Positions 6,195 through 6,768 of a stretch of DNA of 64,000 nt are shown piece by piece. A program made the translations under genes and the position numbers. Each line of letters starts with the position of its first letter. Position 1 is the stretch's first letter. The notes under the pieces are model-generated. The model was not told the origin of the DNA. It searched no databases and saw nothing but the letters and a program-made list of their open reading frames with translations. The stretch is from Hymenobacter metallicola (GTDB taxonomy: Bacteria; Bacteroidota; Bacteroidia; Cytophagales; Hymenobacteraceae): contig NZ_SRMB01000002.1 in NCBI RefSeq assembly GCF_004745645.1, positions 434,001 through 498,000 of the forward strand, in the 5' to 3' direction.

Positions 6195-6225
6195 TTTGGT
6201 CTTTTCAATTCCACCCGTACATTTG
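6195..6225 (+). promoter_or_regulatory. Consensus Bacteroidota promoter of the metY leader
   Basis: TTTG at 6195-6198, 19 bases, then TACATTTG at 6218-6225: an exact match to the -33/-7 arrangement of the main sigma factor of Bacteroidota. The predicted transcript start near 6230 places the SAM riboswitch about 45 bases into the leader. Confidence 0.8.
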
Positions 6226-6275
6226 CAGTCACCAACCCGGTACTCCCCCAGAACGATGGGGCAGTTTTGAAAGAA

Positions 6276-6385
6276 TTTATACAGAAGCGGCGAGAGAACA
6301 GGCTCCCTGACCCGCTGGCAACCTTCATCTGAATGAAAGGTGCCAATTCCTGCCCGCATGGCGTAAGGCCCGCGGGAGCTATAAG
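6276..6385 (+). ncRNA. SAM-I (S-box) riboswitch aptamer
   Basis: The order of conserved S-box elements is complete. P1 pairs TTTATA (6276-6281) with TATAAG (6380-6385). The kink-turn side follows, then AGGCTCCCTGACCCGC, GCTGGCAACC (6314-6323) and, after a P3 hairpin, GGTGCCAATTCCTGCC (6339-6354). P4 with the GGAGCTATAAG closing strand ends the element. It lies in the leader of metY-metX-hom, the expected target of S-adenosylmethionine feedback. The expression platform is not obvious: no T-tract terminator follows, and the first ATG comes only 9 bases after P1, so control of translation of the leader ORF is possible. Confidence 0.88.
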
Positions 6386-6394
6386 TCGAGTACC

Positions 6395-6553
6395 ATGGAA
6401 AATAACCTCCCCTTCGTCTCTTTTGCCCCGTCCGCTTCAGCTGCCTTTGCGCCGGCTGAATTGCCGATGGGTTTTCGTGTTGCCACTGCTTCGGTCCTGG
6501 GCCAGCACAACGGGCGAATGCGAATGTGTTGTTGGAACCAGTGTTGTTGCTAG
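6395..6553 (+). CDS. Putative cysteine-rich leader peptide (uORF)
   Basis: A 52-codon ORF starts 9 bases after the riboswitch P1 stem. The first 41 codons look unremarkable. From an internal ATG at 6518 the last 11 residues read MRMCCWNQCCC, followed directly by TAG: five Cys codons and one Trp in nine codons, ending in three consecutive Cys codons. Such a C-terminal Cys run immediately before a stop is what cysteine-sensing attenuation peptides look like (polycysteine leader ORFs are known upstream of sulfur genes in mycobacteria). It lies in the transcript of metY, which assimilates sulfide. Whether translation begins at 6395 or 6518 cannot be decided. The function is inference; the Cys run is directly visible. 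Confidence 0.55.
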   Translation: MENNLPFVSFAPSASAAFAPAELPMGFRVATASVLGQHNGRMRMCCWNQCCC

Positions 6554-6768
6554 CCCGCTGAGCGCTTAGCGTCCCCCTCCCTCCTTGTTACTTTCTGACT
6601 TACCCACGGTGCAGGGCCAGTTGCTGGCACGCTTCATCGCAGGGGTTGGTCTGGCTCCGACGCAGCCTTACGCGGGCTCCGGACGCTACTGCGGTTGCCG
6701 CCTTACCAAGCGCAACCTGCTGACAATCCGAAACTTCTTTCCAAGACACTTCCTAACCCAGCTCCATC
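6554..6768 (+). promoter_or_regulatory. Rest of the metY leader RNA
   Basis: 215 untranslated bases between the leader ORF stop and the metY start. A short hairpin with a GCCAG/CTGGC stem lies near 6617-6630. AGCGTCC (near 6568) could pair with GGACGCT (near 6681). No clear rho-independent terminator was found, so an attenuator hairpin cannot be claimed. Confidence 0.35.

Follow-up and report, generated by a model that had tools for sequence, protein, structure and literature searches.

SAM-I riboswitches in which the 3' side of P1 contains the ribosome binding site have been described (available portion of PMC2258182). Leader ORFs with runs of Cys codons are known from Actinobacteria, ahead of the cys operons of Mycobacterium and Propionibacterium and of Bifidobacterium cbs, and involvement of Rho was suggested for them by analogy with tna (PMC1262725, in the text accessible). 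For Flavobacterium psychrophilum, leader-peptide attenuation of an unspecified kind has been noted upstream of amino acid operons (accessible text of PMC9723704). Here we describe a locus of Hymenobacter metallicola in which, as in many related bacteria, a SAM riboswitch directly precedes a very small gene with a run of Cys codons at its end, and because of this arrangement the sulfur-metabolism genes downstream probably answer to two sulfur signals in series. From the comparison of sequences, we consider it likely that the locus represents a two-input sulfur control element with serial SAM and Cys/Met inputs. A preliminary description of this DNA had proposed that the leader may integrate SAM, sensed by RNA folding, with cysteine, sensed by ribosome stalling. 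The combination is supported comparatively, but the inputs look serial rather than parallel, since P1 abuts the start codon of the leader.

Architecture of the element in the window

The window is the whole stretch of DNA that was analyzed, 64,000 nucleotides of the H. metallicola genome, and all features of the element lie on its plus strand. A Bacteroidota-type promoter (6195..6225) could be read directly from the sequence: TTTG at 6195-6198, which we take to be an element of such promoters, is followed after 19 nt by TACATTTG at 6218-6225. The latter conforms to TAnnTTTG, given as the sigma-A consensus in the available text of PMC9723704. This motif occurs within 130 nt upstream of the aptamer at 82 of 107 comparable loci, versus 10/107 for the reversed motif. 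A strong hairpin followed by six T (6121-6152) lies between the promoter and a gene at 5784-6095 that is presumably of the LysM type; by eye, the hairpin reads as the terminator of this preceding gene.

The SAM-I (S-box) aptamer, which is of the type that we term class B, spans 6274..6387. It matches RF00162 over its full length (model positions 1-108) with 67.3 bits (E 1.6e-13) against a gathering score of 44.4, and it is the sole Rfam match above gathering score within the window. Its P1 is A/U-rich (AATTTATA ... TATAAGTC). A 7-nt spacer (6388..6394), read from the sequence, separates the aptamer from the ATG of a 52-codon leader ORF (6395..6553; MENNLPF...GRMRMCCWNQCCC*), which was recognized from the ORF list and from comparative statistics. 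This ORF ends RMRMCCWNQCCC, its Cys codons being TGT TGT .. TGT TGT TGC, followed by TAG. Judging by the distance, initiation at 6395 would bring the ribosome over the 3' strand of P1. An untranslated stretch of 215 nt (6554..6768), the presumed response site, leads to genes for a metY-like O-acetylhomoserine sulfhydrylase (6769..8154; PF01053, Cys_Met_Meta_PP), a metX-like homoserine O-acetyltransferase with an alpha/beta hydrolase match (8432..9463; PF00561; named by position and sequence) and the homoserine dehydrogenase hom (9402..10715; PF00742 and PF03447). Because the listed TTG start of hom at 9402 overlaps metX, its true start is probably the in-frame ATG near 9441. These observations bear out the consensus promoter, the full S-box aptamer, the length of the 215-base stretch after the ORF and the downstream order metY-metX-hom of the preliminary description. 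Its 52-codon ORF with a Cys-rich end stands as well; the distance differs, since we find 7 nt from the end of the Rfam match to the ATG where 9 bases after P1 had been claimed.

Distribution, codon content and targets of class-B leaders

The H. metallicola genome contains six SAM-I elements, 5 of which are followed, 7-10 nt after the aptamer, by the start of an ORF with a Cys-rich ending (CCGMMCCPCC, CCWPSAGAGCCC, CCGMLCCAVCMPALG, GMMGCCCCC and, in the window, CCWNQCCC). These five share the A/U-rich P1 (TTTATA ... ATAA) that defines class B. The sixth, a class-A element with a CTTATC P1, directly precedes metH and is without a leader ORF. Class-A loci in Hymenobacter, including L004 of the same genome, have the P1 nnCTTATC...GATAAGT, and a downstream segment, GCTCTTCTGACTT or a near variant of it, often recurs; Hymenobacter class-A loci with such a segment carry no Cys-run leader after the aptamer. 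Class-A loci look like a different expression platform.

SAM-I elements were found in all 61 genomes of the genus that were searched, its own included, in 79 of the 98 genomes of the order search and in 167 of the 198 of the phylum search. Among class-B leaders of the genus in the genome-search set, 32/33 have two or more Cys among their last 12 residues; L032 is a genus leader whose Cys run sits further from the stop. Loci with the same kind of leader were present in other families of the order and, among 40 regions read, in families f22 and f26 of the class. The loci examined from family f25 had no such leader, and a class-B pattern match exists in one f25 genome. A DNA pattern for class B matched at least 119 stretches in species-representative genomes. 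Among the matches listed, all recognized class-B aptamers belonged to Bacteroidota (113/113), and Cys tails were seen in Hymenobacter, Pontibacter, Rufibacter, Pedobacter, Mucilaginibacter, Sphingobacterium, Olivibacter, Algoriphagus, Cyclobacterium, Marivirga, Chryseolinea, Haliscomenobacter and Psychroflexus, among others. Within a sample of the class, the pattern occurred in 26/296 genomes and 14/165 genera, with 0 for the reversed control among the matches listed. Counted by taxon group, meaning the genus or else the lowest name or label available, Cys tails occur in 30 of 41 and Cys or Cys+Met tails in 32 of 41. The preliminary description had expected relatives that keep the riboswitch to keep the ORF and its Cys run; the 30/41 taxon groups with Cys-run leaders agree with this expectation, as do the controls given below.

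Two arrangements of SAM-I elements stand out in the genus. In several Hymenobacter genomes, two class-B elements face each other ~15-17 kb apart (G009:C11:364155/379320, G018:C8:1433927/1450596, G023:C7:1094060/1109766 and G006:C3:1864673/1880627), one before the permease type of target and one before the cysH type, as though they marked the edges of a sulfur gene cluster. At L016, one element of class A and one of class B point in opposite directions out of a single short intergenic region (G050:C13:32056-32170 minus and 32486-32577 plus).

Taken by itself, the Cys run of the window could be due to chance, and a loose Cys-run pattern, too permissive in that TGG at the end also matched, hit the genome 220 times. 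Thirty of these 220 matches were examined for stand-alone Cys-run leaders and five had a real stop and start codon; the 2 stand-alone candidates checked for context (L300 and L323) lay inside longer coding frames, as judged by reading the frames. The exact CCWNQCCC codon pattern was rejected as a conserved peptide: it was found in 1/101 genus genomes, that of the window itself, indicating that the thing conserved is the Cys codons and not the sequence.

Leaders were called by a rule blind to Cys (first ATG, else GTG, 3-19 nt after TATAA, with ORFs of 12-75 codons kept), which returned 131 short ORFs from 166 unique class-B aptamers. At least 2 Cys occurred in the last 12 residues of 107/131 leaders, placing several codons of the regulated amino acid near the end of a short ORF as in known leader attenuators. 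By the same count, the two other frames gave 3/47 and 14/113, dinucleotide shuffles 159/1459 and ORFs behind class A 2/21 (from 75 class-A aptamers). Since the frame, shuffle and class-A controls were far lower, the Cys run is unlikely to be a product of chance. The last Cys lies 0-2 residues before the stop in 96/107, and Met reaches 1.08 per 12 tail residues in class-B leaders versus 0.04-0.20 in controls. The preliminary description agrees with this enrichment of Cys and needs an amendment: Met is enriched too, and Met-rich tails with few or no Cys exist. The latter were seen at L182, L246, L213, L226, L268 and L196 (Ancylomarina, Bacteroidales/Lentimicrobium and a Psychroflexus MAG), with VMRMQMMMRML, MMMSMYMRMRMQ and HMSMRMPGC as examples, and their codon content suggests methionine sensing. 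Five leaders, from Sphingobacterium among others (L177, L216, L271, L286 and L137), end RMR just before the stop.

The counts given above leave out L007, a duplicate of the window locus, as well as L043, L044 and L048, which have Cys tails and fall outside the class-B script pattern, and they score L236, whose start the rule misassigned, as a miss. Two tail Cys were lacking in 24/131 called leaders, 13 of which had fewer than 2 Cys+Met. No leader was called behind 35/166 aptamers (28 with none, 7 with fewer than 12 codons); under a looser start rule, 16 of these 35 gained a Cys/Met-tailed ORF, and the remaining 19, several of them from Algoriphagus and Spirosoma, had none even so. At L202, L237, L198, L217 and L292 (Spirosoma and Algoriphagus), the class-B aptamer is followed by ATTGGCG...CTGGTTC, without a Cys/Met-tailed ORF. 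Such loci are perhaps a third, leaderless platform.

We compared 17 pairs of relatives to see what is conserved. Cys codons were kept at 89/99 aligned positions and other residues at 367/475, identity was 84.7% for the leader and 65.2% for the gap behind it, and indels were multiples of 3 in 7/15 cases in the leader and 20/118 in the gap. The third-position excess of the leader was mild (90 vs 62 and 64). From this pattern, it is the Cys/Met codons and the reading frame that seem constrained, rather than the peptide.

The choice between the two Cys codons is reversed in the tails. Those of 53 Hymenobacter leaders contain 179 TGT and 64 TGC (74% TGT/UGU), compared to 19 TGT and 101 TGC (16% TGT) in 29 long ORFs of the window, whose genes alone supplied the gene codon usage; T is the last base of 37% of the remaining NNY codons in the leader tails. 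The TGT excess was strong relative to the window ORFs and to the other NNY codons (Fisher p 2e-26 and 3e-17, values that overstate independence because the sequences are related). A Cys-specific excess of T does not look like a pure composition effect, which would shift other codons too. Preference for a rarely used Cys codon fits a tRNA-charging sensor; as an alternative reading, UGU may be preferred on account of RNA structure, with U instead of C.

The next gene, found for all but 4 of the 131 leaders, was metY in 54 cases, cysH in 18, metX in 9 and metH in 4; CarboxypepD_reg/TonB-receptor-like genes and amino acid permeases followed 12 leaders each, ATP-grasp-like genes 10, and eight genes were singletons, including MTHFR (metF-like, 1) and a luciferase-like monooxygenase. 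Pfam assignments of targets were made on representatives or fragments only, the ATP-grasp-like match falling just under the cut-off, and the names metH, metX and receptor are ones that we presume from sequence or recall. As in known leader attenuators, many of the downstream genes belong to the pathway of the sulfur amino acids, the rest being transporter-like or other. If our reading of the element is right, the regulon is predicted to include amino acid permeases, TonB-receptor-like proteins and an ATP-grasp protein. Single class-B leaders also precede genes for the luciferase-like monooxygenase (L241), which was Pfam-tested, and for proteins that we take to be AhpD-like (L250), OsmC-like (L282) and dioxygenase-like (L200). 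These 4 genes are possible new members of a SAM/Cys regulon.

Proposed mechanism, output and alternative explanations

The aptamer, the in-frame Cys/Met-tailed ORF, its spacing from P1, the codon choice and the sulfur-gene targets can all be read from the DNA itself. With respect to spacing, the distance from P1 to the start codon is 3-11 nt in 98/107 cases (mode 6), P1 consists of 6-15 contiguous pairs, G-U counted, in 104/107, and about half of the 20 nt before the leader start are A (0.47 and 0.50). This position of P1 suits sequestering of a translation start, which is known for a subtype of SAM-I and is optional for the family. With the start codon at 3-11 nt, a SAM-bound P1 should block leader translation: an initiating ribosome would occupy the 3' strand of P1, such that a closed P1 and initiation should exclude each other. 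In family f26, a long frame starts close behind a class-B P1 at two loci without a Cys leader: the frame of L169, metX-like by sequence, has its ATG at +11 and is preceded by a 12-codon ORF at +4, while that of L168 begins at +9. Long frames in this place are expected if P1 controls whatever starts there.

We propose the following sequence of events. When SAM is high, the bound aptamer would close P1 and with it the A-rich initiation region of the leader, which forms the 3' strand of this helix; the leader would go untranslated and the operon would be off. When SAM is low, P1 would open and ribosomes would translate the leader, meeting sulfur amino acid codons just before the stop (in Hymenobacter mostly the rare UGU, often with Met). 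If Cys-tRNA (or Met-tRNA) is well charged, the ribosome would finish and leave; if charged tRNA is scarce, it would come to a halt over the end of the reading frame, and this stall would permit downstream expression. The last step would most likely be premature termination without an intrinsic terminator (Rho), or else a lineage-specific RNA rearrangement. We infer the SAM-dependent blocking of the leader, the stalling, the direction of the response and the last step, and for cysteine the direction is borrowed from known attenuators. For class-B SAM-I elements of several Bacteroidota orders, we lean towards the view that they act mostly on translation of sulfur leaders, such that SAM arms the sensor and the charging of Cys/Met tRNA sets the output. 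If true, the class would be a riboswitch whose regulated product is an attenuator.

The preliminary description had assigned the response to the 215-nt stretch of the window. This assignment found no support: the gap at 6554-6768 folds no better than shuffles and contains no intrinsic terminator, and a search of gaps for shared k-mers returned lineage-level repeats only, with no element common to all. A terminator/antiterminator of the trp/his type was rejected, terminator-like sites being present in 3/117 gaps (10 of 127 left out for length). Single folds had made it look convincing that the Cys run pairs with the region beyond the stop, but such pairing found no general support in a set of 89 leaders (mean z 0.11 in Hymenobacter, -0.54 elsewhere). 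Nor was pairing between the Cys run and the start region of its leader supported: the observed mean was reached in 16/200 permutations for Hymenobacter and, elsewhere, in 130/200. Compared with shuffles, the 60 nt that follow the stop form slightly more stable folds (mean z -0.83, 15/56 at -2 or below), and the consensus fold of 9 Hymenobacter cysH gaps is weak (-2.86 kcal/mol). Lineages differ in what follows the leader. In Pedobacter, a hairpin forms between the Met-Cys codons, as its 5' arm, and the stop region, and two more hairpins come after. In Mucilaginibacter, the Met-Cys codons pair with a segment just after the stop, which can instead pair further down, as read by eye from single folds; the downstream pairing stretch scored z -2.1 to -2.6 in 3/6 sequences, the remaining ones lying at 0.1 to 0.5. 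According to these folds, the competing pairings of Mucilaginibacter would be classical attenuator geometry, but lineage-specific, and they are without a conserved U tract.

We favor premature termination of the Rho type as the output. Rho is encoded in the H. metallicola genome, and the pyrimidine fraction of the 100 nt after the stop is 0.582 (93) versus 0.522 in 337 other upstream regions, a modest excess in a comparison that drew on 97 leaders. A Rho-dependent leader of the TnaC or CruR type would expose an unstructured, C-rich and G-poor region once its ribosome is gone; windows of 78 nt with C>G were about as frequent in leader plus gap (0.65) as in the downstream gene (0.68) and did not discriminate between them. 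The main rival retains the same inputs and ascribes the output to translational attenuation or mRNA stabilization, the stalled ribosome freeing or protecting the downstream message. Such an output would sit well with the few intrinsic terminators (3/117), with the alternative pairings around the stop in Mucilaginibacter and with the slightly greater fold stability that whole gaps show on average compared with shuffles (mean z -1.07, 101 loci). Mycobacterial cysteine genes are also said to be under translation attenuation (PMC13236596, in the portion available). Against it, gaps averaging some 130 nt ahead of metY and 317 nt ahead of TonB-receptor-like genes are long for translational coupling, and the gap of the window has no significant fold. 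We view a translational output as possible, albeit unlikely.

Three further explanations would replace the cysteine or tRNA input. If the element were a device for SAM only, the leader would be a passive relay: P1 would decide on its translation, translation would shield the RNA against termination or decay, and no sensing would fall to the Cys codons. P1 does abut the start codon, and class-B aptamers without Cys tails do exist, but this reading does not predict terminal Cys/Met codons in 30-32 of 41 taxon groups, the in-frame placement of Cys or the reversed UGU/UGC choice, and we judge it quite improbable. Cys and Met are both thiophilic metal ligands, and a nascent Cys/Met-rich peptide could in principle bind copper or another such metal, which would then control stalling and Rho termination. 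CruR, in which a nascent CXXC uORF protein acts together with Rho, offers a precedent (accessible part of PMC9426467). However, tails ranging from CCCCCCC to MRMQMMMRML hold no fixed motif of the kind CXXC plus RAPP, a metal gives no reason to prefer the rare UGU, and many targets are genes of sulfur assimilation and methionine, making a metal sensor very improbable. Least probable is an arrest peptide that stalls on free cysteine or SAM rather than on tRNA charging, as TnaC does in response to tryptophan, since leader bodies and tails vary widely between genera and what recurs is their Cys/Met content, notwithstanding short recurrent endings (RMR, MPGC) in Sphingobacterium and Bacteroidales.

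Comparison with known regulatory systems

The preliminary description knew of no system of this type in Bacteroidota, and our search of a mainly open-access literature, at the level of titles, abstract starts and passages, likewise found no SAM riboswitch combined with a Cys/Met leader peptide in this phylum. As far as that search reached, the components are each known and their serial combination is not described. If our reading is right, one short RNA joins the methionine/SAM branch, through the aptamer, and the cysteine branch, through the ribosome, of sulfur metabolism in many Bacteroidota. It would offer a natural two-input switch and a direct test of combining a riboswitch with a leader peptide in bacteria, and it would mean that short unannotated ORFs behind riboswitches can be functional.

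Several systems share parts of this design. The enterobacterial mgtL-mgtA and corL-corA leaders likewise couple uORF translation to alternative RNA structure, partly with Rho; according to the available text they differ in responding to Mg2+, in having no separate metabolite aptamer in series and in using Pro and acidic codons (PMC11552253). Control of Rho termination of a downstream operon by a uORF is a feature shared with CruR, which differs in being a conserved DUF2946 protein with CXXC and RAPP, for which a riboswitch was argued against in the passages available (PMC9426467); no conserved protein was seen here. Another such system is uORFC-8-2, a short ORF with 2 tandem, conserved Cys codons and features said to be expected of a ribosome-mediated attenuator, although it has two stems, a run of U and a link to a tRNA synthetase, and the portion of PMC8632094 at hand mentions no SAM aptamer.

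The leaders of Actinobacteria resemble ours in being short ORFs upstream of sulfur genes, with a Cys run near the stop and no conserved terminator hairpin. They differ in that they belong to another phylum and that no SAM riboswitch is mentioned in the accessible text, and Met-rich tails are a feature of the leaders described here. Mycobacterial uORFs are called leaderless in the title of a paper cited by PMC13236596; the Bacteroidota leaders are not, and the start codon of the window uORF is preceded by a 114-nt aptamer and, further upstream, by a promoter. With respect to SAM-I (RF00162), the aptamer of the window fits the Rfam model, and starts sequestered by P1 are known for this family (PMC2258182, in part). 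In contrast to those riboswitches, the start near P1 belongs here mostly to a Cys/Met-tailed leader and not to a metabolic gene, and an untranslated stretch then follows. Taken together, these comparisons indicate that the element is by membership a SAM-I riboswitch, joined to something that, from its codons and placement, would work like a Cys/Met attenuator, with terminator-like sites in few of the gaps.
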